From Actinokineospora sp. NBRC 105648 (GTDB lineage: Bacteria > Actinomycetota > Actinomycetes > Mycobacteriales > Pseudonocardiaceae), in contig NZ_BSTR01000030.1 of assembly GCF_030269645.1 (NCBI RefSeq), positions 1 through 64,000 on the forward strand: a stretch of DNA of 64,000 nucleotides. The letters run 5' to 3'. The notes beneath the pieces were generated by a model. The model worked only from the letters and a program-made list of their open reading frames with translations. It did no database searches and was not told the origin of the DNA. Each line of letters begins with the position of its first letter. Position 1 is the stretch's first letter. Shown in pieces: positions 7,765-27,790 of this stretch. The position numbers and the translations under genes were made by a program.

Positions 7765-9083
7765 GGCAGATCCAGGTCGACGTCCTCGGCACGGGTAGCG
7801 GCGTTGCGCTCGACGTCAGTCATCTCCGTCGCGTTGACTGTGAGCGCGTAGTCGACGCGGGGATCGAAATCACCGAACTCGTCGACCCGGTCGAGTACGT
7901 CCTGCACCAGCTTGCGCAGGAACAGCCGAGGCGCGATCCCCACCTTCCCGCCGAGCCCACCGGTGACCGCGGTAGCCAGCTGGGCGATGTAAGCGTCGTC
8001 GACCACAGACTTGATCCGGTCGGGGTGGCGAGCCGCGCCCGCGTAGAGATCCCGTACAGCCCGGCCCAGCTCCCCCAGCTTCGCGAGGTCGAATCCGGTC
8101 AGACGCAGCTGCACGGCCTTGGGCGAGTCGAACCGCGGATCTGTCGACAGATCGGTCGCGAGGCGCTGTGCCAGCGGCGGCAGGCGCTGGACACCCTGCT
8201 GGCCGTCGAAGAACGCCGGTGTGCCGGTGATGACGAGGAACAGCCCGGGGAAGCGACCAGCGTCGATCTCGTCGAGCAGTTGACGGAGCGCGTTGAGCCC
8301 TTTCTCGCGCACATCCCCGCGGACTCGCTGCAGGGTTTCGATCTCGTCGAGCACGACGAGCAGGCCGGGATGGCCACAGTCGCGCAGCACCGTCAACAGA
8401 CCCTGCAGAAAGCCGAGAGCACCGAAGTGGTCGAGGTCACCACGGACACCAGCGAGTCGGCGCGCACTCGCGGCCACCGACTTCTGGCCGCCCAACCAGG
8501 CGATTATGCCCTCTGAGTTGGCTGCGTCCCCAGCGGCTCGCGCGCGCCGGTATCCCCGCAGGGCCGCGGAAAAAGCCGGGGTGCTGCGGGCGACGCCCGC
8601 CAAGCGCTGCTCCATAAGCACGTCGACCGCTTCGGCGAGGGCTTCTTGGTCGGTCTCGTCGACCTCGCCCGCCTCGAGGGTTTCCTCCTCAAGGGTGTAG
8701 ATCCAGGAATCGACCACGGCGCGCAGTGCGCTCGGCTGGTGCGTGGCCGTGGTGAGCCGCTCGGTCAACCTCCGGTAGACAGTCTCCAGCCGGTGCAGGG
8801 GTGTCTCGGTCTCGGAGATCTGGATCTCGGTGACGGCGAGGCCCGCGCGCTTGGCGCGCTCAGCCAGCCAACGCGCGAAGAAGGTCTTGCCGGAACCGTA
8901 GTCGCCGCGGATGGCGTGGAAGGCGGCACCGCCACCCGCGGCGGTCGCGATATCGTCGTCCATGGCCCGGGTGAAGCGATCCAACCCCACAGCGAAGAGG
9001 TCCAGGCCGCTGTGCGGCACGGTGCCCCGACGTAGTGCGTCGATCACCTCGCGTCTGCGAACCGCGCTGACCGAGGCAGTCAT
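7761..9083 (-). CDS. brxD: BREX system ATP-binding protein BrxD
   Basis: A 440-residue P-loop ATPase of the DUF2791 type. Walker A is GDYGSGKTFF (Lys66), and the Walker B segment LLVVLDEIETLQ carries Asp246-Glu247. The segment VLITGTPAFFDGQQGVQRL is typical of the sensor region of AAA-like ATPases in this family. It starts with ATG at 9083, overlapping the pglZ stop by four bases, and its own stop overlaps the brxHI start. BrxD is a diagnostic gene of BREX types 2 and 6 and occurs next to a helicase, as here. Its biochemical role is unsettled; DNA-loading ATPase for the defence complex is a reasonable inference. Confidence 0.92.
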   Translation of the reverse strand: MTASVSAVRRREVIDALRRGTVPHSGLDLFAVGLDRFTRAMDDDIATAAGGGAAFHAIRGDYGSGKTFFARWLAERAKRAGLAVTEIQISETETPLHRLETVYRRLTERLTTATHQPSALRAVVDSWIYTLEEETLEAGEVDETDQEALAEAVDVLMEQRLAGVARSTPAFSAALRGYRRARAAGDAANSEGIIAWLGGQKSVAASARRLAGVRGDLDHFGALGFLQGLLTVLRDCGHPGLLVVLDEIETLQRVRGDVREKGLNALRQLLDEIDAGRFPGLFLVITGTPAFFDGQQGVQRLPPLAQRLATDLSTDPRFDSPKAVQLRLTGFDLAKLGELGRAVRDLYAGAARHPDRIKSVVDDAYIAQLATAVTGGLGGKVGIAPRLFLRKLVQDVLDRVDEFGDFDPRVDYALTVNATEMTDVERNAATRAEDVDLDLP

Positions 9084-11749
9084 GGCATCTTCAAGGCGAA
9101 CTGCTCGACGAGGAGAGCCTTGTCGAGTTGCACAGTCCGGCCCCCGTCGATCACGTTGAGCACCGGGTAGCCCTCTACGTTGAGGAGCCGTTGCAGCGTC
9201 GCGACGTAGCCCTCGGGATTGCGCCGCGCACGGCTATCGAACTCGGCCAGGGCGACTAGCGGAGTGGTCCCGCCGCTCGACAGGAGGGCATCGATGATGT
9301 CCGCCACGACCTTGTTCTCCGGTGGCTTGCGGACGAACGCCCGCTGTCCGCGGTACCCGTCCGTCGCGACCACCCGGACGCCCACGGAACCCGCGGCTTC
9401 GGCTACGTCCTCGAAGAGCGGCACCGCGTCGTTCGTGGGCTGCTCACGCCTGCGGGATGGTTTGCGAACGGCCGGAGCGGACGCGATGACCTGCTCCGCG
9501 TTCCACCAGCGGGGGGTGACGGCATCAACCGAAAGCACCCGCCAGCCCGCGGGCAGCAGATCCAATCCAGGCAGCAAGACCAAGACCGGCACGGTCATCT
9601 CCGCGAGCGCGGCACCACCGTGGTAGCCGGCGTGCCGGTTCACGTAGCGGATGTCTTCACGCCATGGCACGACGACACGGCCATCACCGTAGAGCACTCG
9701 TGGGCCTGCCAACTCCACTTCACCATCCGCCGCGGTGCCCGTCCGCCACCGAGCGGATTCCGTGCCCTCGGCCCGTCTAGGTCCGTCTCCTGGTGTCGAC
9801 CGGTCGAGCACGTGGCCGTGGTCGGAGACCAGCACCACCGGCCGCCCGTACATCCTGGCTGAGTCGAGGAGTTCGGTCAGGTAGGTCACATCGCCGACTC
9901 GCCAGCCCGCCCGGTCGCCTTCCCTGCCGTGGTCGAGCGCGTCGTCGATGGTGTTGAGAACAACCCCGAGAACGTCTACTTCAGCCAGTGCTGCCACCGC
10001 GTCCGTGGAGAGCCGGTGCCCGCCCGCACCTGCCAAGTCCGCGCTGTGCAGCAGGCGCGCGGTACGCCGACGCGCAACCCAGAACGATTCGAACTGTGTT
10101 CGCTCGAACGCCTGGCGCCCCGTCGTCGGCTCGCCGCTCAGCAGGCTGGCCCGACTCCCGTTGGTCACCGATGGGACTGTCGCCACGGCGGCCAATCGCC
10201 CTTGGCCCTGCGGGGCGGCTTCGATCCAGCCCGCCCGGTTGAGTTCCGCGCCCAACTCCACCGCGACGGCGGCACTCATCCCATCCAACACGACGAGTAG
10301 TGGTTTCGCGTCCGCCAGCGGCTGCACGACTTGGTGCATGACCTCTTCGATCAGCAGACAGCCTGCGGGGGCCGCGGCCGAGGCGCCCACGGTCCACACC
10401 CTGAGCCGGTCCGCGAATGCCTCGTCAATGGCCTCCCGGCGATCGCGCGCGCTCTGGTGGACCCTGCGGTACGCGTCCGCGACGACCGGGTCAGGTGTCG
10501 GGTCGCCCGCCCACAGCAGGGTGCAAGCCCGATCGACCCAGCCCCATTGCGCCATCTGATCGCGCACGCCCTCCGCCACACTCGTGACCTGGGCCGGGGC
10601 CTCGCCGAGCCAGCGGTAGAGCCGCGCTGCCGCGTCGGCCACCCTGACTCGGTGGGGCAGCAACTGTGCCAGGGCGTGCTCGCGTACTCGAACGAGTGAC
10701 GCTTCCATCCGTTCAGCGGACTTGGCACGACGCGGAGCGACCAAGCTCGCCGCGAGAGCACGCAGTCTGAATTGGAACGACGACAGCAGAAAGTCGCTGT
10801 CCACCAGTGCTTCCGGCAATGCCGGTTTGGTCGCGGCGATGGCATCGGCGCGGGTGGCGACCGCTAGTACGACATCTCGATTGGCCGGCTCAGTCGCCCA
10901 TCGCCGCAGTGTCGCCTCCACGGCTTTGCCGAGCAGTTCCACGTCGGTGGACTTGACGATTCCGGCGAACAAGCCGCCGACGTCGATGATGACGTTGCTG
11001 GAGACACCGGGCCGTGTCGCCACCGCACCGAGCAAGCCCAACGGCAACACGTCCTCCGCGCGACCCGCCGCCGCGAGCGCCAGCACCGCGGGAGCGGCTC
11101 CGTCGACCGTCTCGCCGAGCCAACCCGCGATGCCCGAGCGCTCGGCTTCAGGCAGGTCGACGTAGCCTGCCGCACCCGGGGTACGAGTCCACGCCAGCAG
11201 AGCGGGCAGGTCGAGCGCGCCCTCACGAACCGTTCGGGTGCTCAGCCTGGCTCCGATGAGCGCGGCCACGGCCGCGTCGCGGGTGAGGACGCCGCCGACC
11301 CCCGGCCACCCGCCGACCGGCTCAGCGTCGATCAACGCGTCCAGCAACCAACCCTCACCACGCACCCGCGGGTCGAGGCCGATCGCCCCGAACCGCTGTC
11401 GGACGATCTCACCCCGGTCGATGTCGACGACCCGACCCGCGACGGTGTGCGCCCGCACGTCCCAGCCGAGGTCGTCCGTGGTCAGTGGCGTGGTGATCAC
11501 GAGCAGGTCCTCGGCCCGGTCCGGGTCTTGCTCGTGTTCACGCCAGGCGTCGACCACGCCGAGCACGGATGCCACCTGGCGGATCCGGACCTGGCGCTTG
11601 CCCGCGGTCGTGCGGAGTGCGAACTTCGGGTCAACACCGTCGAAACGACCGTGCACCAACGCCAGCCGCGCGCCCCTGCGGTCGGGCAGGAGCCCGCCGA
11701 GCAGGGCCTCGATCATCCGGCGGTTGACCGACGGCGGCGCTGCCATCAT
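9080..11749 (-). CDS. pglZ: BREX-2 phosphatase-like protein PglZ
   Basis: An 889-residue protein whose central part is a PglZ domain of the alkaline phosphatase superfamily. The metal-binding motif [11 protein letters not shown] carries the nucleophile-region Asp489, and the second metal motif VSDHGHVLD has Asp643, His644 and His646. The N-terminal 450 residues are helical and family specific. PglZ is the hallmark protein of every BREX type and is needed for phage exclusion; the substrate of the fold in BREX is not established. The ATG at 11749 (or 11746) overlaps the pglY stop. It is longer than the BREX-1 version, as is usual in type 2. Confidence 0.94.
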
Positions 11750-14700
11750 CCCTCCGAGTCCTCATGGGCCGGTCCGGCCGGCCGCCACCGCACGTCGATC
11801 TCGATCCGCGAGTCCGGGTTGGCCGCGGTGTATGTCGCGATGTCGCGAGAGTAGTCGCGCAGGGCATCGATCACCGCACTCTCCACTCCGGACGCGGTAA
11901 CCGTGCGAGTTCCACGCGATCGTGGCAGGTTCTCGAGCCCACCTTGCACCGGCGTATTCTCGGCCGCGGGCACCGGGTCGACAACCTCCACCGGACTCCG
12001 CGGCAGGGGATTGGCCCCGCCACCGGCTTGGGTGGCGGTCTTGGCGACATCGGTGATGAGCTCGATGACGCTCGCCCGGGCGCGATCGAGCACGGGTGCC
12101 AGCGCCCGGGTGAACTCGTGCGCGTTGGCCGCCGTACCGATCTCGTCGGTGAGGCGCTGCGCGCGGTCGCCGAAGCTGTCGGTTCGGGCGCGGTACCCGC
12201 GAACCGTGGTGAGTAGAGCCCACTCCACCCGGTCCAGCGCAGCCAGGACCGCGGGTGCCTGGGTCGAGGCCGAGGCCAACTCGGCGTCCGACGAGCCGTA
12301 CTCGGCACCGGCCAACTCGTCGAGCAGTGCGGTGGGGTCGGCGTGGTCGACCAGGCCAGCGAGCAAGTCTGCCGCGTCCGTGGTGCTGGCGACCCGGTCG
12401 GCGTCCTCAGCGAGACCCAGCGCCGCCGCGTGGTTGTGCAAGGACTGGCGCACCCCGAGCACGGCGGGCTCCAGCTCCACCGCTTTGGCGCGCACTTCAT
12501 CGGCGAGCCGGGCGACGTTGCGAGCCAGCAGAGCATCAGGCGCGTGCAGGCCGAAGATCGCTCCGGCGCGGGTCCTGGCCAGCTCGTAGCGTTGGGGCGT
12601 AGGCAGACGTTGGGCGCGCAGCGACCAACCGGTACCGATCTTTTCCAGCACGGGCGGCTCGGCGTTCGAGCTCTGGTAGAGCCACGCACGGTCCGCGAGC
12701 AGCGCGTAGACGGCGATGATGAGATTGCCGATGGACTTGTCGAGACCGGTGTAGCCGAGTTCCTCGATCCAGCGACGGATGTCCTCCACGCCGTAGTCGC
12801 CGGTGACGTCGTGTGCCGCGGCCTGCCGGTCGATGCGCCTGCGCCATTCCGGGCTCAGGATCAGCGGCCCGTCGTGCACCTCGCCGAGTTCAAGCGGGTG
12901 CACCACCCGCTTGACCAGGGCCAAGTCCTTGCGGTCGACCACCTCTCGGTTGCTGTTCTCCGCAGCCTTGGTGATCCAGCTCAACACCACCCGCAGCTCA
13001 GTCGGGCTGAGTGGCTTGCGGCTGCCCGACGGGTCGAAGTCAGGGTGTTTGGGGTAGAGCACCGCGTAGAGCTCGTCGGCGAGCGAGAGCATGTTGTACT
13101 CGAAGTCCGCACCGCCTTGCAGCCGTGGCCGGTGGCCCGGCTGCAGCGACATGACGTGCTCGCCGTCGGGCACCTCGGGCCCGACCTCATCGACCTGGGC
13201 GATGCCGTAGAGCTGGCGAAGGTACGCGATCAGTTGCGAGGTCAGGTTGTCGCGCTGGGCCTCCAACTGGTGGCGCACCCGGATGCGGTCATCCGCGGAC
13301 AGGTGGCTGCCGTAGTCGTCGAGCCGGTCGCGCTCCAGCAGGTGCTGAATCTTGAGCAACCTGCCCAGCTGGGCGGACTTGCGCGAGTTGAGGAAATGCG
13401 GCAACCAAACGATGGTCGCCGCGCGGTGACCGGCACGCATCAGGCCGCGCACACGGTTAGCATCGTCGCTGGGGCCTCTGTCGTGCTCAGCATCGAACGG
13501 GTAGTCCAAGACGAACCGGATGCGGCCCTCGACGCTGGGTGTGAACTGCGCGTCCGCGAGCGCGTGGGAGTCGCGCACGTTGTCGAACACGAACTCCGCG
13601 ACCCGACGGGTCCCCCGCCAGATAATCTCCCGCTCACACACGAACGAGCCGGTGTCGGTCACGTTCAACTCGGTCCACAGCTGGTTCTTGACCCAGATCC
13701 GCCGCGCACCGAGCCGGTCGATCTCGCCGACGGCGTCGAGCAGCGGCTCGATGTCCAGGTCGGACAGGTGCAATGCGAAGACCGGGTCCTCGGCACCGTC
13801 CGCACGCAGCTCGCCGAACTCTGCCTGCAGCTCGCGCAGCCTGCTGACCACCACGGCGCCCTCGGACGTGGTGCGCGAGCGGATCGAACCGTAGTTGAGT
13901 GCGGCCAACCGGGCTCCGGTGAGCCGAGCGAGTGCGGGGACGGTCGGCGCGAGCGCGGCCAGCATGAGTGTCTTGACGAGGCGGTCGTCAGCCTTGAACC
14001 GAGCGTCGTCGGCGCTCTCGTACTTGGCCAGCAGGTGTGCTTGGACCTTGGTGTGGAAGCGGGCCGCGGCTTCGGACTCGCGGCGCAGCTTGTCGGTGAA
14101 GGCCTCACCGGTCCCGTCGACGAGGACGTCCCACAGGTCGCCGAGCGGGAAGAGTTGCCCGAGGGTGAAGTCCGCACGCCGCCGGTAGAGCATCTCCTCC
14201 AGCAATTTGAGTCCTGTGCGCTCGCGCTGCAACGCGCCGGAGAGCGCGACCAGCACGTTGAGCAAGGCAGGCGAGAGCGGGTAGACCGAGCGGAAGTCAT
14301 CCCAGTCCGCGCCGGTCACACCATTGGCGTCGAGCAGCACGTCCTTGACCGAACCCTTGGTCGAGTCGATGCTCGCAAACGCTTGCCTGAGCAGATCTTC
14401 CTTCCCCGGGAACGGTTTGAGGATCCGCTCCTTGATGATCGCGGGCAGGTTGCGGTCCTCCAGGCTGATCACGTCGACCCGACCCGCGAGGTAATTGACC
14501 TGCGTCTCGAGGTTCTTCACATCCGCGCCGGTGACGTCCTCGCCGACGAGCTTCGACAGGTCGCGCTGACGGGAGATGAACGACACGATCGGGACCGGCC
14601 GATCGGCCACACCGGACTCGATCAACTTGACCAGCTTGCTGACCTGCGTGTTGACGAACCGCTGGTTGGTGATATTGGCCTGCAGCCACAGGATCAGCTC

Positions 14701-15534
14701 GTCGAGGAACAACACCACGCCGTCATAGCCGAGGTCGCGAGCGTGGGTGCTGATGATCGACAGTCCGTCTTCGAGCGGCAGGAATGCCTTCGTGTCGCCG
14801 ATCGCACCGCGCACGTAGCTCGACATCGGTCCGGACAACAACGCCGAGATCAGGGCGTCGCGGACCGGGTCCCCGGCAGGCGCGGCGAACGCGCGGTCGA
14901 GTTCAGTCGTGGTCCACGCCGACACGGCCGCGCCATCGATCGGCGCGAGGTCGTCTGGATCATGCACCGTGGGAAGGTCAGCGCCGGTACCGAGCCAGTC
15001 GGCGAACTTGGCATCGCTGCCCAGGAACTCGCGCTGTCGGCGCGCGTCGACCAGCATCGCGTCCGCCCGGTAGACAGGCGGCGTAGGCGAGTCCGGGTGC
15101 AACGCGCGAACGGTGGCAACGTACCCGCCGAGCAGTGCCGAGTCGAGGTCGGCTGCACCGACGAGGTGAAACGGAACCATGAGGAACCGCTTGTTGCGCA
15201 ACCACTCGTCGTGCTCGGCGATCACGGGTTGCAATCGCGGCTTCGCCCGCGCGGCCGGATCGTTGTTGAGGATGGCGTGCAGAACGGTCAAGAAGTGGCT
15301 CTTACCGGCACCGTACGAACCGTGCAGGTAGGCAGCTTGCGAGTTGCCGTCTTTCAGTGCCGCACGCACCAACCGCATGGCCTTGCCCAGGGCGGTCTTG
15401 ATCTGATCAGTGACGACGTACTCGGAGACCCGGGCGGCGGTGTCGGTGAACCCGCCGGACAACTCGATCTTGAAGTTGCCGGAGTGCACCGATTCCGGGA
15501 TGTGGATGACATCCCGCAGGAACACCTCACTCAC
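11746..15534 (-). CDS. pglY: BREX-2 ATPase PglY
   Basis: A 1262-residue AAA-type ATPase, the type 2 counterpart of BrxC. The N-terminus reads [19 protein letters not shown]. Walker A is [11 protein letters not shown] (Lys78), and the Walker B/DExx segment [13 protein letters not shown] has Asp278-Glu279. A long helical C-terminal region follows and ends in a Pro/Gly-rich linker with a short conserved tail ([12 protein letters not shown]). I chose GTG at 15534, which gives a GTGA overlap with the pglX stop; the open frame upstream lies inside pglX. In Streptomyces, PglY nucleotide binding is needed for phage growth limitation. The large size matches the family. Confidence 0.94.
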
Positions 15535-18500
15535 GAGCCCGCCTCCGTCATGTCGATCTGCTCGGCTTCGACCGTGCTCTTCCGGCTCCTGACTGCGGCC
15601 TTGCGACCCCGACTCACCTGGGGCCGCCACCCAGCGAGTTCGCCATCGGTGAGCCGGTGCAGGGCCTGCTGGTCGCGCAGGAACGCCTGGTACTCCTCAG
15701 CCGGGTCACCGTCCCACTCCGCGTCGTAGCCGGAGTGCCACTGCACCACCCAGGGCATCACCTCGGCCAGACCAGCCACCAATGGGGTCAGCCGCGCGGC
15801 GTCCCAACCGGACTGCTCGGTGCGCTCGTTGATCGTGTTGACCAAGGCCTGGGCCTGGTCCTTGTGGTCCCACCCTGCCCAACCGAGCAACAGCGTCGGA
15901 TCGGACTCGGGACCCGCGTCGGGGTAGGAGATGAACCGCTCCTTGGGCACGTCGAGCTTGCCGCGGTGGCTCCAGTAGCTGACCTTGCGGAAGTCCGCGG
16001 TCGTGTACTTAGGCGGCACCGCGATGGCGAGCCTCTTGCCGGTGCGGTCTTCCTCGCGCTGCTGCTCCCAAACACGCTCCCACTGCGCCCGCTTGCGCAG
16101 GCCAGTGTCCTTATAGCGGAGAGCGGCCAGGTACGGCACGTGCTGATCGGCGACGATCACCTCCAGCACCTGGGCGAGCGTGACATCGCGCCGGTTGAGG
16201 TGATCGGCCGCGTAGAGCTGGGCGACGGAGTTGATGTCCTCGTCGTCGCGGAGCTGGTCAGCGAGCTGGTTCACGGTCAGCGTGCGGGGCTGCTTGAGGC
16301 CATCCCGCAGCGCGAACCAGAGGTCTTCACGCTCACAGCGGTCGAGCAGCCAGGACCGCAGGGCCCGCTCTTCCTTCTTCTCCCAAGACTCAGCCGACCA
16401 ACGCCGCTTGCACTCCGGCCGTTCGATCAGCGCGATGTCCTTGCGCTTCTCAATGATGTCGATCCGCGCTTGAACGATGTCCTGATACCACTGCGGCCAG
16501 TGCGAGGGAATCTCAGTAATCGGCGTCGAGCCGTGTCGCGCAAACCAGGTAGTCTCCAAATCACCGGCCGCGATCTTGCGCGCGAGCACAATCTCAAACG
16601 CCCGCTCGCCAAGCGCGATCCCTGGAACTTCGTCCCGCTCCTTCACAACCAGGCGATCAGCCTCAGCAGTGGCGATCAGACCGTAGAGCCGGTAGGTGTC
16701 CCAGTCAAGTTCTTCTTGCAGGACAATCATGCGCGCCCTGATCCGCTCATGCTCAGACTTGGCCGCGTCCAACCGCGCTCTGGTCGGCACCGCCTGTTTT
16801 TCAACTGCAGCAGGCTCACACTTCGCCAGAGCTTGCGCTAAGCCGTCCAAAGCACGCCCATACTTCAACGGGAATTCTTCAGGCAACGGAAACTCTTGCA
16901 GCTTGGTACCGGTGAACTCGTAGAATTTTTCCCAATCTTCACTTGCTATCCCGCCTCCAATGCCTCCATTTCCCTTATCGTGACAGACTTGCTTAAGCCA
17001 GAAACTCGCCGTGGACGAGTTGAGCACCCCCAACAACGCGAGATGCTCGTCCTCGTCCACCGTGTCGGCCAATTTGATTACTGGCGCCGTTCGATTGAAG
17101 ACCCGATTTCCTCTGTCCAACACGAAATGATTGCTCGTCGCCACAAACGGGAAGGCTATAGACAACTCAGAACGATAGGCCGAGGCGGTGTGTTGCATGT
17201 ATTCCCACCAATGCAGACCAGAAGCTCTCATATCGCCTTGAAATGTTCGACGAGCCGCGAGCATTGTACGCCAAACCCATAGTTCATTCTCAAGAAGATC
17301 GGTATCTAGGTCACTGCGATACGGGTACCAGATTGCAACCGACGACCGGGTTTGCCAATCTCTAACATCCTCGCCAATCAGCAAAGGCATTATGGGGCGG
17401 GACGGAATACGGTTCTCCAGAAAGCGCGTTGGACGCGTGAAAGCCTCGTCCGCACCGGCCCGAATTCCTCGCCCAACCGAACCTTCCAGAAGTTGGCGGA
17501 GCTTGCACCTCTTGGTATCAACGATCTCGAAAACAGCGCTCGCCTCTCCACCACTAAGCGACCAAGGATGCTGTCGAAAGTCGGCAGACTGCACATCTCT
17601 AACCGAGACCCAGGGCGTATCCACAGGGTTCTTGTCCCAGTTGTCGACAATAGCCGACCACACGAGACCAGCCGACGGTACGTCGGGCTCGAACGGCTCA
17701 CCTTGAACACCCAGAATGGCCCGTAGCACATCGGCGGTTCGCCCTGCACAGTTTCTTCCAGCTAGAATAACGGTCGGAGTTCCGTGGCCAGGAATATAGA
17801 CACCTGACGTGTCGATCACATGAGTCAGAGAAACTGTATGGAAAAAGTCTTCCACAAGCTTCTTGCCAAACTCACGCTTCATGAACGAGTTGGCGGTGAG
17901 CTGTCCGACGAATCCAGAGTTGCGATCCTCCCCCTGATTTCGCTGAGCCAGTTTGAATGAACACTCAACGAACGGGACAGACAGTGCGTAGGTTCCCGAA
18001 CAGGAATCATAGCCAGTGCGGTAGTTCTCGTTGTCTTGCTTGTCCTTAGGCGTGATATATGGCGGGTTGCCGACTACAACATGGTACGAGCTACGCCCCA
18101 GGAGGTCACATTTGGAGATGTAGTTATCGACGTCTTCCGTGCGATAAGTGAAGGGGTCTTCGTCTGCAAATAGTTCGCCCTGTTGCCACACAGGTGCGCC
18201 TCGCCCATGTAACAGCGAGTCCCCCACCGCGACGTTGATTGGGAACTTCTGAGCATGCAGGGTCTTGACCTCAGCAGCCTTGAGGGCCGCGATGAGCAGG
18301 CGGAAGCGGGCGATGGAGGCTGCAAAGGGGTTCTTGTCGCAGCCGTGGACGGACTCCAGGGAGCGTCGGATCAGGTCCCAACGTTCCGCCGCCGGGGACT
18401 TCTTCTGCCAGGCTTCGAACAGGCGGTGGAAGATGCCCAACAAGAAGTGGCCCGAGCCGCAGGCAGGGTCGATGGTGCGCAGGCCGTCGAGGCCGAACTC

Positions 18501-19184
18501 CTCGATGGCAGGCGTCAGCGTCAGATCGAGGATGAACTCCTCGACGAACTCCGGTGTCTGCAGCAGGGCGTACGTCTTCCGGGCCGCCTCAGACAGGTCC
18601 TGGTAGAGGTCACCGAGAAACCGAGTGTCCAACTTCGGGTCAGTGAAGTCGTGCACGATGACGCCGTCGGCACCGCGCCTGCGCCAGAAGCCGATCAATG
18701 CTGTGGCGGTCTCGAACGATGGAGTGATCTCCCACAATGGGTTGTATCGCGCATCAAACAAACCTGCGACGGTGTCGTTGGACTCTGCCAAGTGGTTGAA
18801 CGCCTCGACGATCCAGTCGCGGTCGTTCTTGGCTGGGTTGGCGCGGAAGTACGCCTCATGCCGGTCTTCGGCGTCGGTCAGCCGCTCCCCCGGCCCAGCG
18901 AGGTACGGGTCATCGATCAGCCGGTTGTCCTCGCAGAACCGGACGAACACCGTCCCCAGTACCCAGGCGACCGCCACCTGGGTCACCCGCTCATCACGCC
19001 ACGACTCGTACGTCGCCGCCGTTCGCTTGGCATCGAACGCGGTCTTGTACTCCTTAACCAACGGCTCCGCGAACTCGGCTTCCTCGCTGCGCCCGCGCAG
19101 GTCGTCCTCCAGTAGGACGACCTGTTTGCGCAGGTCCGCCAGCAACGCCCGCTGGTCGACTCCGCTCGGTACCGCCTCGGTCAC
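15531..19184 (-). CDS. pglX: BREX-2 adenine-specific DNA methyltransferase PglX
   Basis: A 1217-residue N6-adenine methyltransferase that should mark host DNA at a short non-palindromic site. The SAM-binding motif [12 protein letters not shown] begins at Asp239 and the catalytic NPPY motif at Asn373 ([13 protein letters not shown]). A target-recognition region follows, and a helical C-terminal domain occupies roughly residues 890-1217. GTG at 19184 follows GGAGAGG; the frame upstream lies within pglW. The middle of the gene (about 16530-18240) is strikingly AT-richer than both ends: 60-base lines counted by hand gave 42-50% GC there against 63-70% in the flanks. That suggests replacement of the recognition segment by recombination. 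Confidence 0.95.
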
Positions 19185-19203
19185 GTTCCACCCTCTCCGA
19201 CCG

Positions 19204-22200
19204 CTATGCGGCCGATGTCGCGCTCTTGAGCTGATCCATGAACCCGCGACCAAGCACCACCTGCTCGGCGGTGTCCTCGATCTCGACGATCCGACCGTCC
19301 AGGCGGGGAGTGGTGTTTGCCGCTTCGCCGGGGCACAGCAGCCACAGGCCGTGCGGCCGGTCGGGTGCGCGTCGCGCCGCTTTCTGCAGACGGACCAGCA
19401 GTTCCCGGCCGCCTGCCTCGAAGTACCTGGCCAGCAGGCCCGCATCGTGCACGAGCAGGACCTGGCGCTCGGCCGCGCGGGCGAGCAGCGCGGATTCCAC
19501 TCGCTGCCATGTGTGGTCCACGTAGGACCGCAAGCCCTGGCTGAGGCGACCGGTCTCGGTGAACCGGGCGTCGATGGTGAGCACCTTCTCCCAGTCAGTT
19601 CCCTGCTCGGCCGCCAAGGCACGGAACTCGGTCAGGAACAGGGTGTTGAAGTCCACCGGGGACACCTCGTAGACCTGCGCCAGGGTCGCCGCGAGACCAG
19701 GCAGGTGGCGGCCGTGCAGGGTTAGCGCGCGGAATCCGCCGCGTTCGACGGCCAGCGCGAGTTTGCGGTAGGACGCGTCACCCAGCTCGGTGCTCATGAT
19801 GGACAAGCTGGTATTGCTGAACTGCGATGATGAAGAGCGGGGTACTTCCGGCGCGGGAGCGCGGAAGACTCGCAACACCGTGTCGTACTCCAGTTCGAAC
19901 CCGGCGGCGCGCAGTGCGTCCCCCAGCACCACGTGGGTTAGCCTGCTGGGCACGTTCAGATCCGGGAACCTGGCTCGCACCTTGGCGATCAGGTCGTGTG
20001 GACTGATGCCGGGATCACGTCGGACACCAGCGGCAGCCTGGGACAGGCGAAGCGCGCGGGCCAAGTCCAGCTCTCGGGGGTAGAGCTCCAACCTCGGCGA
20101 CCCGGCCGCGTTCTTCGACATCCGGGCCGCGAGGCCGACCAGCCTGGTGTCGGCGAGCGCGGGCAGTCCTTCGGGCGGCGCGACCGCACGCAGTTCCCGA
20201 ACCACGGCCACCGCACCTGGCAACGAGTCTTGGTCGGCGACCAACTGATCCGCGCGCTTGCCGAGCGCGACGGCGTAATCCGCCATCTCCTGAGCGCTAG
20301 GTACGTCGGTACCGTGCAGTGATTCCAAGGCGACCAGCACCCGACCCGCTCGGCGCAGTACCGCCAGTCGGGGATCGGACACCTCGTCGGCGTTCGCTTT
20401 GACCTCGGCTGCGGTCTCCGCTTCCACCGCGGCTCGGACCACGGCCAAGGCTCGCGCCATGACGAGTTCGCGAGCCGCGTCGGAGGCGCCGTGGCGGACG
20501 CGGATGGCGACCGCCAACTCGTCCACGGTGCACACCCGACCACGGGACTCTAGGACCCCGACCAGTTCGTCGCGCACGCCCACGAGCCAGTCGGTCCCCG
20601 CCCACTCCTTGGCCGCCGCGCGGTGGTGGGTGGACACGGTCGCCTGGGTGACGCCCAGCCGGTTGGCTACCTCGGCCTGGGTCGGCCACGTGGGTGGGAT
20701 CTCGCCTTCGGACTCCGCGGGCAGCCCCAGTGTCAGCCGCACCGCGTCCGTCTTCTTAGACCTGCGCTTGGCCTCGGGCAAGAGCTGGGCAGCCATGTCG
20801 TCCACACTCATCGCGGCAGTGGAACTCGGTACTTCCTGCCGCCCGCGACCGCCGCCCAGCATGGTCGTCCACTGTTTGTGCCTGCGATTCAGTTCACGCC
20901 GTACCGAGGCGCCCGCACCTCGAACCCGCGGAATCTCGTAGGGGGGCACGTCGAGCAGTTCGCCCACGGTGTAGGCGTTCAGCGTCGCGGCAACGGACTG
21001 CGCCCGGGGCGACAGACCTGCGGCAACGAGAAGTGTGCCAGGGGTGACCGCCTGCGCGGCTGTGTCGCGCTGCTCCTCCAACGACTCGTCCGAGCCGTGA
21101 TCGGTCTCCGGGGAAGAGGCAGGCGCTGTGGCATCCGCGACCCGGAAGACCCCTCGCCACGCCTCCTCCATCTGCTTGAGCGTGTCGAACCGCCGGTTGA
21201 CATCGCGGTGCAGTGCTCGGTGGAAGAACGACGACAGGCCTTCGCGCAACGCGGGCTCGAACAGCTCGTCGACGATCTTGGGGGTCTCGTCGTCGATGGT
21301 CTTGGGGTCGGCGATGTCGTCGCCCCACCGGGGCAGCTCCCCGGCCGCCATCTGGTAGAGCGTCACCGCGACGGCGTACCACTCGGCGTGGTCGTCGAAG
21401 ACCGGCCTGCGCCGGTCGCCCAGGAACGGGTCGAGGTAGCGGTGGGTACCGGCCTTGATGTCCTTGTCCGACACACCGGCGAGGGAGAAGTCGAAGAGCT
21501 TGAGCTGCCGGGAGCGGTCTGCCCTGCGCAGCACACCGAGGTTGTCCGGCTTGATGTCGCGGTGCCGGATCCCCTTGCCCGCCAACTGGTCCAGCGCGGT
21601 GAACAGGTCGCCACCGAACCGCTCGAGATCGTGGTAGCTCAGCCTGCCCTCGGCGCGCAACTGCATGCCGAGCGACTGTTCGCCGACGAACTCCAGGTCG
21701 AGCAGCATCCGCTCGCCCAGTTCGCGGAGCGGGCCGAGCAGCTTCACCACGATCCCGCCGCCGACCTGCTCCAACGCGCGGGCTTCGGCCGTCAGCCGAG
21801 CGTTGCGCGTGGCGTCGAGAGCGATCTTGAGGACCTTGCGTTCGACGCTGTCGGCGCCGTCGTCGTCAACACCCTGCTGGGTGACCAGCAGGGCACGAGC
21901 GGTCGCACCGGTGCCCAGCACGCGGTCGACCATCCAGTCACCGTCGATCAGCTGCCCGGGCGTGGCGGTCAGGGGATCGATGACGTGCGCCGATCGAAGC
22001 GGCTCGGTCAGTTCCTTCTCGATCTCGTCGAGGCCGTGCAGGAACTCCTCGACGCTGGGGAGCCGCTCGTTCCAGTCCGAGCGGGTCGCCTCGAAGACGA
22101 GGTGGTCCAGTGAGTCGACTATCCCGTCCGCGATCACCGAGGGGTGCAGACCACCGTCCCGAGCCACTCGCTCAGTCAGTTCGGTGCGCAGCGCCGCAGG

Positions 22201-23547
22201 CGGCTGACCGGTGAGGATCAGGTACGCGACCGCCCCGACACCGAAGACGTCGAGAGCGACCGGGTCGGCGAACTCCTGGAACTCCGGCGCCAGGTAGACC
22301 TGTGCTGAGGCTTCGATGTGGGCGTTGGTCAGCGGTTCATTGAGCGAGGTATGACCCGTGGTCTCGAAGTCACGGGCTGCGGCCTGCCAGTCGATGATCC
22401 GGATCTCGGCGGCCTCAGGTGCCGCCCCCGGGGAGACGTAGATCGAACGGGCAGCCAGCGCACGGTGGTAGAGCGCACGGTCATGCGCGTAGCGCACGGC
22501 TTCGGCGACCTGTCGGACCAGGTCGAGCCTGATCTGCGGGGTCAGGTCGGCAGCCCGCGCGGCGAGGTAGTCGTCGAGCCGGAGGTCTTCCGCTCGGTGC
22601 CGGAACAGGATGGCGGGACCACTCTGGTGGTCGCGGATCTGCACTGCTTGTGCGATCCCGCGGTGGGTGATGCCCTGGAGCACCTCGTACTCGCGGCGGG
22701 CGGCGCGCTCAACGGTCTGCTGCCGCTGCGGCGTGGCTTGGCGCTCGGTGAGGTAGAGCCTGACCCGACCTTGTTCCTTGACCGGGCCACTGGTGCGCCG
22801 GGCCAGCCGGTCCTGCCAGGTCGGGCCCTCGTCCAGTACGTCGTCCCGCATCCGCCAGTCATCGGCGAAGTCCAGGTGCGCCGTGGACGCCCGGACACCG
22901 ATCTTCTCCAGCCACTTCGGCAGCAGACGAGCGAACTCGGCGGTGATGCGGTGCGAGTCGTGCTGCGGCGGCCTGCCGAGCAGATCGGCCCAGATGGCGG
23001 GCAGGCCGGTGTCGAGCCCGTCGCGGCCATACACGTGCGCGGCTTGCACGTGGTCGAGCTCCGAGGTCAAGTTCGGCGCCGAGAGGAACACCGCGGGCTG
23101 GATCCAGGGGAAACGGCGGTCGCGGGACCCGTAGCCGTCGGCACGGGCCGCCTGCTCGAGCCTGGACTTGAGCTCCTTGGTCTTGCGGTCGGTGAGGTGC
23201 AGCGGGTTGCGCAGGGTTCGCACCCGGCCGCTGTCCGGGTCGCGGAACGACCAGGTCTCGCCACTGTTGACGACGTGGCCGGGGTGTCCCTTGAGCTCCA
23301 GCAGGTAGAGCCCTGCCGGAACCGCCACGAACAGGTCGCACTCGTTGATCCGACCCGAGTTGGCGGTGAACGAGAAGGTCGCCCACGCGCGGAACGGCTC
23401 GACGTCGGGCAGCTGGGCCCGGACGTGGTCCAGCCCGGCCTGCTCCCACGGGTACTCCGAGACCTCGGCCTGGAACCAGCGTTTGACCGGGGACTTGCGC
23501 GGCGGTGGCGCGGGCTTGGGTACGGGCTTGCCTGCACTCTCCGACAC
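19204..23547 (-). CDS. pglW: BREX-2 NERD/serine-threonine kinase PglW
   Basis: A 1447-residue multidomain kinase. An N-terminal NERD nuclease-like domain (about residues 20-150; GRINECDLFVAVPAG then LLELKGHPG) is followed by a first kinase-like domain in which the catalytic loop reads HRALAAR (His361), without HRD, and IIDWQ replaces DFG. A second kinase domain has VLK (Lys574), HRDIKPDN (Asp664) and DFS at Asp686. The C-terminal third contains a sigma-70-like helix-turn-helix (QAEVANRLGVTQATVS, near residue 950). GTG at 23547 follows the purine run GGGAGAGGGG; an ATG at 23595 is also open. In S. coelicolor PglW autophosphorylates. First gene of the six-gene BREX operon, 19 bp from pglX. Confidence 0.93.
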   Translation of the reverse strand: MSESAGKPVPKPAPPPRKSPVKRWFQAEVSEYPWEQAGLDHVRAQLPDVEPFRAWATFSFTANSGRINECDLFVAVPAGLYLLELKGHPGHVVNSGETWSFRDPDSGRVRTLRNPLHLTDRKTKELKSRLEQAARADGYGSRDRRFPWIQPAVFLSAPNLTSELDHVQAAHVYGRDGLDTGLPAIWADLLGRPPQHDSHRITAEFARLLPKWLEKIGVRASTAHLDFADDWRMRDDVLDEGPTWQDRLARRTSGPVKEQGRVRLYLTERQATPQRQQTVERAARREYEVLQGITHRGIAQAVQIRDHQSGPAILFRHRAEDLRLDDYLAARAADLTPQIRLDLVRQVAEAVRYAHDRALYHRALAARSIYVSPGAAPEAAEIRIIDWQAAARDFETTGHTSLNEPLTNAHIEASAQVYLAPEFQEFADPVALDVFGVGAVAYLILTGQPPAALRTELTERVARDGGLHPSVIADGIVDSLDHLVFEATRSDWNERLPSVEEFLHGLDEIEKELTEPLRSAHVIDPLTATPGQLIDGDWMVDRVLGTGATARALLVTQQGVDDDGADSVERKVLKIALDATRNARLTAEARALEQVGGGIVVKLLGPLRELGERMLLDLEFVGEQSLGMQLRAEGRLSYHDLERFGGDLFTALDQLAGKGIRHRDIKPDNLGVLRRADRSRQLKLFDFSLAGVSDKDIKAGTHRYLDPFLGDRRRPVFDDHAEWYAVAVTLYQMAAGELPRWGDDIADPKTIDDETPKIVDELFEPALREGLSSFFHRALHRDVNRRFDTLKQMEEAWRGVFRVADATAPASSPETDHGSDESLEEQRDTAAQAVTPGTLLVAAGLSPRAQSVAATLNAYTVGELLDVPPYEIPRVRGAGASVRRELNRRHKQWTTMLGGGRGRQEVPSSTAAMSVDDMAAQLLPEAKRRSKKTDAVRLTLGLPAESEGEIPPTWPTQAEVANRLGVTQATVSTHHRAAAKEWAGTDWLVGVRDELVGVLESRGRVCTVDELAVAIRVRHGASDAARELVMARALAVVRAAVEAETAAEVKANADEVSDPRLAVLRRAGRVLVALESLHGTDVPSAQEMADYAVALGKRADQLVADQDSLPGAVAVVRELRAVAPPEGLPALADTRLVGLAARMSKNAAGSPRLELYPRELDLARALRLSQAAAGVRRDPGISPHDLIAKVRARFPDLNVPSRLTHVVLGDALRAAGFELEYDTVLRVFRAPAPEVPRSSSSQFSNTSLSIMSTELGDASYRKLALAVERGGFRALTLHGRHLPGLAATLAQVYEVSPVDFNTLFLTEFRALAAEQGTDWEKVLTIDARFTETGRLSQGLRSYVDHTWQRVESALLARAAERQVLLVHDAGLLARYFEAGGRELLVRLQKAARRAPDRPHGLWLLCPGEAANTTPRLDGRIVEIEDTAEQVVLGRGFMDQLKSATSAA

Positions 23548-23801
23548 TGCGATCCCCTCTCCCACGCCTGCTAGGCCACCTCCAGCGACAACCATGCTAC
23601 GAGCGGGTGTTTTCCGACCAACCAGACGTCGCGGTCGCGCACCGTGACGTTACGCCATCCGGTAGGTCACCCCGAGCTTGGTCGAGTTGGTGAAACGCGT
23701 TCGCCGGTCCACGATCGGGTGGTTGTCCGACCCACGAGCGTACGACGGCCTAGCTCAGGTCGGCCCTCAGGACCGCGTCGCCTGCGGATCAGTCGTGCCC
23801 A
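23548..23801 (-). promoter_or_regulatory. Intergenic region upstream of pglW
   Basis: A 254-bp gap between the stop of the HipA-like gene and the pglW start on the same strand. It holds no credible gene. It is the only sizeable gap in the defence cluster, so it is the most likely place for the promoter of the six-gene BREX operon. I could not pick out a convincing -35/-10 pair or an inverted repeat by eye. Confidence 0.4.
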
Positions 23802-25028
23802 CTATCCGAGCAGTGTCGCGGCGCGGGCGCGGATGCTCCGGTCGATGCCGTCGACCAGGTGAGGGTGGCCCGCGATCGAGTCCGCCACCTCCGGCCACGC
23901 GGAGACCGCACGCCGGACCGTGTTGGCCACCGCCTCGTCCAGCCTCGCCCCCGTGGCACCCAGGCGCTCCTGCAACCGGGTGAACGAACCAACGGAGACA
24001 CGGTCGAAGCGCTTGGTCCCGTTGAACCGAAGTCCAAGCGTCTCCAGGTCGCCGGTCTCCCGGTACACCTCGGTGGACACCAGGTCGTACGCCGGGGCGA
24101 GAGTGGGGATGCGGTGGTCGCGGTAGATGAGCGACCAGTTCTTCAGGTGCGCGTCACCGTTGGTGATCAGGACGTCGAAGGCCAACCTCCGGGCGAACTC
24201 GCGCAGGGCCGCCACGTCACGCCGCCGGTAGACGAGCGCGGCGGCTGTCTCGTAGGTGCCGTTGTACTTGTCATCAGGCCAGAAGCCACGTACCTGCGCC
24301 AAGTCCTCGATGTGGATGAGGCCGCGATCGGCACCTCGATCGAAACGCCGGACCGCAAAGGCCCACGACTCTGATTCCGGCCACGCGGTGGCGGGCAGGT
24401 CCGGCAGCTCGTCGCGGTGGACAAGCCGGATGTCCGGTACGTCGATCCCCGCCTTCGCGGCGAGGGACATCATCGCGTACTCGTTGTGCGGCACCCCGGC
24501 ATGCAGGCGATCGGGCAGCTTGACGATCCAGTCGCCGCCCCTGCCGAATGCGGGGAGTGTCAACCGGTCACCTTGCTGGAGCATCGAGAACTTGAGCTGC
24601 ACCCCCGCAAGTGAAAACCGCCACTCAAGTGCACCCGGTTTGCCCCTGTCCGCGGAAATCGCTTCCGCTACCGGTGTTTCTCCCGGCTCTGTATCCGCAG
24701 GCAGCACTCGAACGGCACCGGGAAGATCGTGCCCGACCTGGGCCAACAGCTCCATCTCGCGGTCCGCGGAAACACCCTTACCGTCGGCGATCCACTCGCG
24801 CAGGCGCCCCTCCAGCAGCAGGTTGGAAAACCACGGGTGCACGCGCATGTGCGAGGCATGACGCAGCAACAGTCTGTCCTCGAACCACAATCCAAGAACA
24901 GCGCGGTCTGGGTCCCGCCTATAGTCTTCACTGAACTCGAACCAGGTGTAGTCCCCGCGCTGGTTCAGCGTGCCGACTCGATCGTCGTAGAGCCAGACGC
25001 CGTAGGCGGCCTCACGCGGCGAAGTCAT
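23802..25028 (-). CDS. HipA-like serine/threonine kinase (toxin family)
   Basis: A 408-residue HipA-family protein. The N-terminal 'couple' region (YGVWLYDDRVGTLNQ...LRHASHMRVHPWFSNLLLEG) is followed by the kinase core. The catalytic loop NGDAHLKNW has Asp292 and the metal-binding PAYDLVST has Asp315. Their 23-residue spacing is the same as between Asp309 and Asp332 of E. coli HipA, and length is close to the 440 of E. coli. ATG at 25028 overlaps the end of the DUF262 gene by 17 bp, so the two are translationally coupled. No HipB-type helix-turn-helix antitoxin precedes it; the DUF262 gene occupies that position. It may act as an abortive-infection kinase accompanying BREX, which is inference. 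Confidence 0.88.
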   Translation of the reverse strand: MTSPREAAYGVWLYDDRVGTLNQRGDYTWFEFSEDYRRDPDRAVLGLWFEDRLLLRHASHMRVHPWFSNLLLEGRLREWIADGKGVSADREMELLAQVGHDLPGAVRVLPADTEPGETPVAEAISADRGKPGALEWRFSLAGVQLKFSMLQQGDRLTLPAFGRGGDWIVKLPDRLHAGVPHNEYAMMSLAAKAGIDVPDIRLVHRDELPDLPATAWPESESWAFAVRRFDRGADRGLIHIEDLAQVRGFWPDDKYNGTYETAAALVYRRRDVAALREFARRLAFDVLITNGDAHLKNWSLIYRDHRIPTLAPAYDLVSTEVYRETGDLETLGLRFNGTKRFDRVSVGSFTRLQERLGATGARLDEAVANTVRRAVSAWPEVADSIAGHPHLVDGIDRSIRARAATLLG

Positions 25029-26709
25029 CGGGATCTTCCGACTCGTCGTCGAGGTCGAGTTCAGAAAGCGCGGGAGTGTCTTCGAAGCCCCACTCACACA
25101 TGAGTTCCAGGAAGATTCTCAACCGCTCACGTAGCAGGCCATGTCGCTCGATCAGGAACTCGCGGTAGTTCCCAACGCGCAACATCGCCAACATCTGGTT
25201 GCTCAGGGCGTGCGAGTCGAGCACTTTGTCCAATTCATGTCCAACCAAGCCGTCCGGTGGCGCCAACAAGATTGGGGCAACCTCACTGTCAGCGGTCAAC
25301 AGCGGCGGCATCAGCACGCGGTTCGCCGCGTACTGCCGCAGCTCCTCCGGGGTGTCGCGCCGCACAATTACACTGCGTACGGCCCCGGACGCGGTCCAGG
25401 CGTCCGTGAGGCAATCTGCCAGTGCCGCTTGGTCGAACACATCCCCGGTCTCCACTGAGCGCGGTTCCGCATACCACCAAGCACACAGAGTGATCTTCGT
25501 CCGCGCCTCGTTCGCTCGGAACCGGCGCAGGTCCGGGATGGGATGTGCGGTCGAGTCGACCAACGCGAGCATCCCAGCCAGAGACGCGGTCACCGCTCCG
25601 GGAATGACCGCGGCGCACAAAGCCCGGATCGCACCTGTGGTTCCACCCTTGAACCTCTCCGGACCGATGACCGCAGCGCGCCAGAACCATCGGCGCAGCA
25701 ACCGTAGATTGTGGTGGCCAGGGTCCGGGTGATGTGCGAAGAACCTAGCGAGCACGATCAGCAAGTTGCGGTACGGCAGCATCGCGACGTGCGGGACATA
25801 TGCGTGCTCCTGGAGGAACTCGACCGCGAGCAACAGAGCGTCCTGAGCTCGCTCGTAGGCGGTGTCGCGATCCTCATCGGGAAACTCGATACCAGCCCGG
25901 CCAGCGAATTCGTTTCGAATGTCACGCAACACGTCCGAATTTCGACGAGCGAGAATCGCCTTGAGGATGGAGTCCCCATCCAAGACTCCAAAGGCGCGTT
26001 CCGCACTGACATTTTCGGCGATGAGCGGAATGGTTAGCTTTCCATCTGCGGTGTCCTCAGCGCCCGCGTTGAGCGCGGTGAAGATCTCAGCTTTACTCAG
26101 CCGTTTGCCATAGTTGTTCAGACGGTCGAAGATGTCTTGCAAGACCGCCACGTCGTTCTGCTCGACCTGGTAGGCGGGCACCTTGAACTGGCGAATCGTC
26201 CTGGCGACGGACGTAGCGTGCTTGAGCTGTGGAGCCATCTCGGGCCGATCGTGAAACCACTCGATGAGCCGCTCCAAGTCGAAGAGCACCGGAAGCGGGA
26301 CCACGGCTGGATCAGCGGCCGTGGTGAGGCGATTGAAAGCCTTGTTCTCCAGGTCGTACCCGAGCGCGAACTTGGGATCAGTGGCCGCTTTCGGATGCAG
26401 GGCATTGGCCAGACTCGTGATGCGCTGCTGGCCGTCGACAACCCACAACGCGCGCTCGACTTTCGGCGCGTCGATGTGCAGGTTACCCAACACGAGGCGC
26501 TGAGCAGGAGCCGATCTCAGCCACAACAGCACGCTGCCGATCGGATACCCCTTCAGGACACTGTCGAACAGCCTGGCCACATCGTCCCGTCCCCATCTGA
26601 ACGGGCGCTGGAAGTGCGGGATCCGGATGTGACCGACCCAAGCCTGCTCGACCAAGTCCTCCAGGTCGAAGGTGACGGCGTTGGGCTTGGTGTCCAGGCC
26701 GGCGCTCAT
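25012..26709 (-). CDS. DUF262 (GmrSD/BrxU-like) domain protein
   Basis: A 565-residue protein whose N-terminal half is a DUF262 domain with a ParB/sulfiredoxin-like fold. It shows IRIPHFQRPFRWGRDDVARL near residue 32, YPIGSVLLW, and the nucleotide-binding signature VVDGQQRITSL (Asp92-Arg96). GmrSD and BrxU, type IV enzymes that cut modified phage DNA, carry the same domain plus a C-terminal DUF1524 HNH nuclease. I see no clear HNH motif in the C-terminal half here; that end is acidic (SELDLDDESEDPDDFAA). The ATG start lies at the right boundary of the defence island, and the stop overlaps the HipA-like gene. Either a divergent nuclease or a sensor for the kinase would fit. Confidence 0.85.
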   Translation of the reverse strand: MSAGLDTKPNAVTFDLEDLVEQAWVGHIRIPHFQRPFRWGRDDVARLFDSVLKGYPIGSVLLWLRSAPAQRLVLGNLHIDAPKVERALWVVDGQQRITSLANALHPKAATDPKFALGYDLENKAFNRLTTAADPAVVPLPVLFDLERLIEWFHDRPEMAPQLKHATSVARTIRQFKVPAYQVEQNDVAVLQDIFDRLNNYGKRLSKAEIFTALNAGAEDTADGKLTIPLIAENVSAERAFGVLDGDSILKAILARRNSDVLRDIRNEFAGRAGIEFPDEDRDTAYERAQDALLLAVEFLQEHAYVPHVAMLPYRNLLIVLARFFAHHPDPGHHNLRLLRRWFWRAAVIGPERFKGGTTGAIRALCAAVIPGAVTASLAGMLALVDSTAHPIPDLRRFRANEARTKITLCAWWYAEPRSVETGDVFDQAALADCLTDAWTASGAVRSVIVRRDTPEELRQYAANRVLMPPLLTADSEVAPILLAPPDGLVGHELDKVLDSHALSNQMLAMLRVGNYREFLIERHGLLRERLRIFLELMCEWGFEDTPALSELDLDDESEDPDDFAA

Positions 26710-27298: not shown

Positions 27299-27661
27299 AT
27301 GCAGATCCTGGTCAACACCGATCACAACATCCACGGCAGCGCGAAGCTGGTCGAGCACGTCGAGGCCGAGGTCTCCTCGGCCCTGGAGCGGTTCGGCGAC
27401 CGGCTCACCCGGGTCGAGGTGCACCTCAGTGACGAGAACGCCGATCGCGAGGTGGGCGAGGACAAGCGCTGCGTCATGGAGGCTCGGGGGGCTGGGGCGG
27501 CGCCGGTGGCGGTCACCCACCACGCCGGGTCGGTGGAGGACGCGTTCACCGGGGCGGCGCACAAGCTCGCGCACCTGCTCGACAGCAAGTTCACCAAGGC
27601 CGCCAACCACAAGGGCGCCGAGACCATCCGGCGGATGGCGGCGGACACCGGGCTGGTCTGA
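27299..27661 (+). CDS. HPF/RaiA family ribosome-associated protein
   Basis: A 120-residue protein with the sigma-54 modulation / ribosome-hibernation fold: MQILVNTDHNIHGSAKL, then FGDRLTRVEVHLSDEN and a C-terminal basic helix (HKLAHLLDSKFTKAAN). The protein is the short form, without the dimerising C-terminal domain of long HPF. Proteins of this family sit in the mRNA channel of the 30S subunit during stress. I chose ATG at 27299; GTG at 27290 is in frame. It stands alone on the plus strand downstream of its truncated paralogue and upstream of the SET-domain gene. Confidence 0.75.
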   Translation: MQILVNTDHNIHGSAKLVEHVEAEVSSALERFGDRLTRVEVHLSDENADREVGEDKRCVMEARGAGAAPVAVTHHAGSVEDAFTGAAHKLAHLLDSKFTKAANHKGAETIRRMAADTGLV

Positions 27662-27790
27662 GGGGGGTCGCTGGGCTGTTCGCCGGGTCCCGCGCGTGTG
27701 CGACACTGCGCCTGCGACGACCCGGCGGCAGGACCATCCGCACCGCTGGGCCTCCACTGAGAGGCGCACACAAAATTGCATAACGACGGC

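Follow-up and report, generated by a model that had tools for sequence, protein, structure and literature searches.

The stretch of DNA analysed here (the window) comprises 64,000 nucleotides of Actinokineospora sp. NBRC 105648 (positions 1 to 64,000 of NZ_BSTR01000030.1, which is contig 30 in a genome of 8.43 Mb) and carries on its minus strand a two-gene unit in which a DUF262 protein is followed by a HipA-family Ser/Thr kinase. The combination of DUF262 with HipA is a real, conserved and widespread unit, found well beyond the window, and represents a HipA variant with a DUF262 partner. As an initial annotation had supposed, this pair is genuine and is undescribed in the open-licence literature searched, which takes in neither bioRxiv nor most subscription papers. 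The pair is most likely to be a free-standing toxin–antitoxin-like defence unit, and its location next to a BREX-2 operon in the window looks like an incidental exception.

The first gene of the pair (25012..26709, minus strand) starts with ATG and encodes a protein of 565 residues with a GmrSD_N (DUF262) domain (Pfam, 9.5e-30), while the second (23802..25028, minus strand) encodes a 408-residue kinase that retains the Couple_hipA (3.5e-18) and HipA_C (1.5e-46) domains in one chain. As read directly from the sequence, the two reading frames have 17 bp in common (25012..25028, minus strand), from the ATG of HipA through the TGA of the DUF262 gene; the ATG at 25028 yields the 408-residue product, and the longest frame would open with GTG at 25097. 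On the minus strand the order is DUF262, HipA and then a complete BREX-2 operon beginning with pglW. The overlap, the common strand and the position upstream of pglW were all correctly described in the initial annotation, as judged from the list of open reading frames and by direct reading, and it was also right in placing DUF262 where HipB would be expected, the gene directly upstream of HipA encoding DUF262 and not a helix–turn–helix (HTH) protein. Simple scans of both intergenic stretches for promoters and terminators gave none, other promoter types lying outside their scope. The paired HipA is the single HipA_C match in the genome, in which DUF262 has three matches.

A HipA scan of genome contigs returned 491 relatives. 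The 80 best were retained (L005–L084), and at 74 of these 80 loci tblastn identified a DUF262 relative. In 73 of the 74 the spacing from DUF262 to the downstream HipA is −26 to +129 bp; the remaining locus (L064) has its DUF262 match in two pieces. In three of the six loci lacking DUF262 (L040, L047 and L084) the contig ends ~430 bp or less from HipA, and three (L055, L069 and L078) are without it. The pair hosts include Actinomycetota, Chromatiaceae, Methylococcaceae, Accumulibacter, Cyanobacteria and Myxococcota, and two Azospirillum plasmids also carry the pair, one of them typed as conjugative and with a recombinase gene adjoining it. Among 397 genomes of the order to which the window belongs, 60 have a match to HipA and 109 a match to the window DUF262, and the two are adjacent in 18 (both place lists combined). 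Counting the window, 89 pairs were measurable, and in 60 of them the reading frames overlap, most commonly by 4, 14 or 17 bp, with HipA start codons set by a rule favouring the start of the query and with two of 91 pairs (L064 and L100) left out for falling outside the gap range. Tree distances for DUF262 and HipA are correlated (r = 0.87, n = 73 pairs; maximum of 999 label shuffles 0.32), which shows co-inheritance, shared species history included. Incomplete or interrupted proteins were dropped, leaving 73 for this comparison and 79 for the nuclease-motif scan described below. The 89-, 73- and 81-member sets mix two locus sources and their rows are not all independent, at least three row pairs appearing to be the same contigs (G088 C11/L026, G081 C19/L041 and G354 C27/L063). 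A viral scan gave no matches to the DUF262 query and three distant relatives (28–30%) with the HipA profile.

The kinase appears to be catalytically equipped. The catalytic Asp292 (24153..24155, minus strand) and the metal-binding Asp315 (24084..24086, minus strand), already noted as intact in the initial annotation, are invariant in a 56-sequence family alignment, and the kinase residues are intact in 80–81 of 81 paired HipAs; the Gly-rich loop, catalytic Asp and metal Asp expected of a HipBA kinase are all present. Ser139 (24612..24614, minus strand), which we take to be the position of Ser150 of E. coli HipA, is a serine in 80 of 81 paired HipAs and in 3 of 13 distant ones. A HipB HTH antitoxin was not found upstream of HipA, GmrSD_N being the sole Pfam family in the upstream gene. 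Characterised HipA kinases halt growth by phosphorylating tRNA synthetases and, to our knowledge, their targets are known while their natural triggers are largely open. The target of HipT, for example, is reported to be tryptophanyl-tRNA synthetase (abstract of PMC10627512).

The DUF262 protein displays the domain and nucleotide motifs that characterise GmrSD and BrxU: RLFDS (residues 46–50; 26560..26574, minus strand), to which a nucleotide-binding role is assigned (PMC8565348), DGQQR (residues 92–96; 26422..26436, minus strand), invariant in 56 of 56 sequences, and FxxxN (residues 194–198; 26116..26130, minus strand), named in PMC12137116, the F and N of which are invariant in 56 of 56. The predicted structure of the window protein (pLDDT 88, pTM 0.79) resembles BrxU, with 7p9k as the best structural match, and the leading rows among the re-aligned Foldseek matches are BrxU, SspE, DndI and ParB-type chains. 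Most members are ~550–580 residues long. The C-terminal half is helical and, within residues 380–565, Ser499 and Arg522 are the sole polar or catalytic-type residues conserved at 90% or more, no His, Asn or Asp reaching 90% in the 56-sequence alignment. No Pfam match to the DUF1524/GmrSD_C HNH nuclease was obtained at E ≤ 10 in seven of seven DUF262 proteins, and the nuclease motif DH[ILVF]xP is present in 0 of 79. Judged by its sequence, the DUF262 protein therefore keeps its nucleotide motifs and shows no nuclease signature, and an active HNH nuclease was rejected for want of DUF1524 and DHxxP. Of the 'sensor/nuclease' originally proposed, the nuclease is thus not supported. The protein ends in an acidic tail starting at EDTP (residues 543–565; 25015..25083, minus strand; Pro546 in 51 of 56), a proposed contact with HipA.

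Modelling of the complex, a check put forward at the outset, was performed with AlphaFold2 on a linked chain of a homologous Streptomyces pair (DUF262, a disordered linker and HipA; eight paired and 66 unpaired rows). With confidence, AlphaFold2 places DUF262 and HipA together (pTM 0.85 for the cognate linked chain, pLDDT 87), compared with a pTM of 0.79 for the window DUF262 alone; for two unrelated bodies of these sizes, a pTM near 0.6 would be expected by our estimate. The tail region has pLDDT values of 94 and 89 in the linked chain against 73 and 55 in the window DUF262 alone, the two models being of different homologues, and the linked-chain model matches E. coli HipA (3dnv) at 4e-16. 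A physical DUF262–HipA complex is thus predicted, in which HipA is probably contacted through the C-terminal half of DUF262 and, in the main clade, through the acidic tail.

The closest parallel among known systems is HipAD (DS-6; PADLOC PDC-M66), which also consists of two genes, a HipA-family kinase and a partner other than HipB. HipAD functions as a standalone system and defends against a phage; deletion of the kinase abolishes defence and loss of the DUF3037 partner is toxic (PMC12548924, PMC13092281). This precedent lowers the novelty of a HipB-less HipA in defence, but not that of the DUF262 partner: the partner in HipAD is DUF3037/DUF1829, whereas neither was detected in the partner described here, which has only GmrSD_N above the cut-off and carries the nucleotide motifs of GmrSD enzymes. 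The kinase fold, catalytic residues and N-terminal Couple_hipA domain in one chain are shared with HipBA and HipBST, in which, in contrast to the present pair with its 565-residue DUF262, a HipB HTH protein adjoins the kinase. With BrxU, GmrSD and SspE the pair shares the DUF262 N-domain bearing RLFDS, DGQQR and FxxxN, BrxU (7p9k) being the closest structure, but the DUF1524 HNH nuclease is undetectable here and a kinase gene is attached instead. PDC-M55 (the ATPase M55A, M55B and the DUF262 protein M55C), which occurs inside some BREX-2 loci, contains a DUF262 of similar length, accompanied by M55A and M55B rather than by HipA. M55C is the nearest PADLOC model: five proteins from the HipA-paired families, one of them a solo DUF262 from genome G215, score 183–216 bits, compared with 785 and 808 bits for two true M55C proteins; membership of the window DUF262 in PDC-M55 was rejected on this low score and on the lack of M55A and M55B alongside. 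Finally, ptuXYZ joins an HNH-less DUF262 to a toxin-type effector (PMC11980606), although this effector is different, a BECR RNase, and a PtuA-like ATPase is additionally present. Further literature drawn on comprises PMC12839542, PMC8262856, PMC2701414 and PMC11341870.

The surroundings of the pair are varied. Of the families represented among 1105 predicted genes at 80 loci, none apart from DUF262 and HipA is present at more than nine loci. When 150 of the 348 nearest genes (79 loci) were compared with PADLOC, the models matched at E ≤ 1e-10 include JetA2, a ZorD/DpdE-like helicase, HEC-01A, PDC-S48 and AbiEi, one protein each among the families listed (25 of 83), and Pfam families of metabolism, transport and regulation lead in the same 150 genes (best 25 of 185), while 150 random control genes from pair-bearing genomes matched mainly Ser/Thr-kinase models (PD-T4-6), MADS and PDC-S03 (best 25 of 41 families). 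These PADLOC and Pfam family lists are without per-family protein counts; the near set takes in HipA-only loci and spans several phyla, and the control genes are from Actinomycetota alone. The neighbouring genes were predicted with a home-made gene caller that missed HipA in 6 of 96 loci and DUF262 in 9 of 96, six of these nine having no gene to find or lying at a contig end. A weak enrichment of defence genes around the pair is possible and a strong one was not seen; as regards the refuting condition named in the initial annotation, equal frequency far from defence genes, no strong tie to defence emerged.

These observations are compatible with a self-contained, scattered toxin–antitoxin-like unit in which a nuclease-less DUF262 of the GmrSD/BrxU type would keep HipA in check and free it on encountering foreign DNA, an interpretation to which we assign a somewhat better than even chance. 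DUF262 would stand in for HipB, binding HipA and restraining the kinase, and HipA would be the effector, arresting growth by phosphorylating a host protein in the manner of characterised HipA kinases acting on tRNA synthetases. When the nucleotide-triphosphate (NTP)-coupled sensor domain of DUF262 meets foreign, possibly modified, DNA, HipA would be released or activated; that nucleotide and foreign DNA together set HipA free is suggested by the sensor motifs and the resemblance to BrxU, which alters its oligomeric state with ATP (PMC8565348). A more specific version, which we regard as possible yet tentative, is a modification-dependent kinase immunity in which DUF262 would read modified DNA and an NTP-driven change would unleash HipA, making DUF262 both antitoxin and trigger. 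Toxicity, the antitoxin role, the DNA trigger and phage defence are inferred for the pair, and several observations weigh against the proposed mechanism. L055, L069 and L078 carry a catalytically intact HipA of the same clade, near base 10000, with no DUF262 upstream, one metagenome-assembled genome among them having a paired copy elsewhere (L067). The acidic tail is not universal, a second paired subfamily (e.g. L129–L131 and L133) and the Accumulibacter group having other tails. The pTM of 0.85 stands for the cognate linked chain only, and co-inheritance includes shared species history. Among the families listed there is little defence signal near the pair, and the phage trigger is therefore derived from the protein families only.

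An alternative explanation is an ordinary stabilising toxin–antitoxin or persistence module, in which DUF262 would neutralise HipA and hydrolyse NTP for turnover with no sensing of phage DNA. Its scattered, metabolic-led surroundings, the few defence-type neighbours and the two Azospirillum plasmids would all suit such a module; on the other hand, DUF262 is a likely sensor of DNA modification in GmrSD, BrxU, SspE and GrwAB (PMC12137116, PMC8565348), is unusually large for an antitoxin and contains no HTH domain for autorepression detectable with Pfam, so that we consider this explanation rather unlikely, if the most serious of the rivals. Active type IV nuclease function of DUF262, with HipA merely regulating it through phosphorylation, for example at the Thr conserved in the EDTPP tail, is improbable, given the missing DUF1524 domain and DHxxP motif and the lack of strongly conserved His, Asn or Asp in the C-terminal half. 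Marginally less credible still is the earlier reading, in which the pair would serve BREX-2 as an accessory module and act together with pglW. In its favour, the pair and pglW are adjacent on the same strand in the window and occupy the same variable interval, and PglW occurs in 7 of 18 pair genomes against 41 of 379 others (Fisher p = 0.003, uncorrected for kinship or genome size), a genome-level co-occurrence that is the one result leaning towards a BREX-2 link. However, PglW, above the cut-off in 48 of the 397 genomes, adjoins the pair in the window alone, lying on another contig or megabases away in the other six of these seven pair genomes; only 1 of the 48 has the pair adjacent, so that the pair is not a regular presence in BREX-2 loci, and no PglW gene was found in the available flanks of the 80 other loci, in 35 of which at least one flank is shorter than 10 kb. 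Furthermore, ~206 bp separate the end of the HipA stop (23802) from the ATG of pglW (23595), while most core BREX genes overlap (pglX/pglY, pglY/pglZ, pglZ/brxD and brxD/brxHI by 4 bp each, with the listed starts). The distribution thus rejects a BREX-2 accessory as a general rule and largely refutes this reading, and with it the attachment to BREX-2 claimed originally as a property of the module. The least probable explanation is that DUF262 and HipA act separately and are neighbours through hitch-hiking: three HipAs without DUF262 and one DUF262 without HipA would fit, but pairing at 74 of 80 loci, overlapping frames, congruent distances and the predicted complex speak against it.

The BREX-2 operon itself (pglW-pglX-pglY-pglZ-brxD-brxHI; 5665..23595, minus strand; NCBIfam and PADLOC) is a neighbour and not a part of the unit. 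Together they fill a single interval that is variable within the genus (4785–29398), flanked by a CHAD-domain gene and dapC, and may have arrived together. The CHAD-to-dapC distance is 22.6 kb in the window and, in sister genomes, 3.3–3.6 kb (G334, G401, G397 and G156), 1.6 kb (G400), ~15 and 120 bp (G399 and G402) or 6.0–6.6 kb (G398 and G188). Inside pglX, positions 16001–18000 have a G+C content of 0.58, lower than in the 2-kb blocks on either side (0.66 and 0.64) and further off (~0.70). On the other side of DUF262, at the island edge, a small SET-domain protein (27776–28255) is encoded beside a ribosome hibernation-type S30AE gene (27299–27661). Elsewhere, one locus (L042) contains a single 25% kinase-domain match, and L018, L041, L061 and L066 contain weak BrxHI-like helicase matches (25–30%). 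Some DUF262 match lies within 10 kb of PglW in 8 of 48 PglW genomes, window included. In three fetched loci from three genomes, an ATPase/unknown/DUF262 trio is located between pglW and pglX (L137:9210-13110, L138:9010-12835 and L139:6765-10665); PADLOC identified the L137 trio as PDC-M55A/B/C and the L138 DUF262 as PDC-M55C, these being the two loci scanned for the M55C scores given above, and the L139 genes are look-alikes by appearance. A look-alike trio annotated as AAA ATPase, hypothetical protein and DUF262 is found on the Paracoccus yeei plasmid pYEE5 (L167).

Variation in partnership was also observed within the family. The solo DUF262 of G215 (L136:4770-6428), situated between what by eye are pheST-like and rRNA methyltransferase-like genes, is the sole HipA-less member of its clade in the 397 genomes and lacks the C-terminal EDTPPL tail too. 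The second, more distant DUF262–HipA subfamily (L128–L131 and L133) has DUF262 proteins ~28–35% identical to that of the window, in those called, and a non-acidic GARDGR-type tail in four of five. On alphaproteobacterial plasmids, related HipAs have an HTH-annotated gene in the place of DUF262 in five of six fetched cases, the sixth being hypothetical; HTH genes upstream of distant HipAs were identified by eye. The HTH-paired plasmid HipAs fall, with weak support (0.475 and 0.865), among the DUF262-paired clades of the HipA tree.

If modification-dependent kinase immunity is true, DNA sensing of the type IV kind would lead not to cleavage of DNA but to phosphorylation of proteins and arrest of growth, tying type IV restriction to abortive toxin–antitoxin defence. 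A partner from a DNA-sensor family would provide HipA kinases with a testable trigger. Such a partner would also suggest that DUF262 proteins without a nuclease act as interchangeable sensors serving several effectors, a kinase here, an ATPase in PDC-M55 and an RNase in ptuXYZ, and the pair would then be a widespread system that searches based on defence islands would easily miss.
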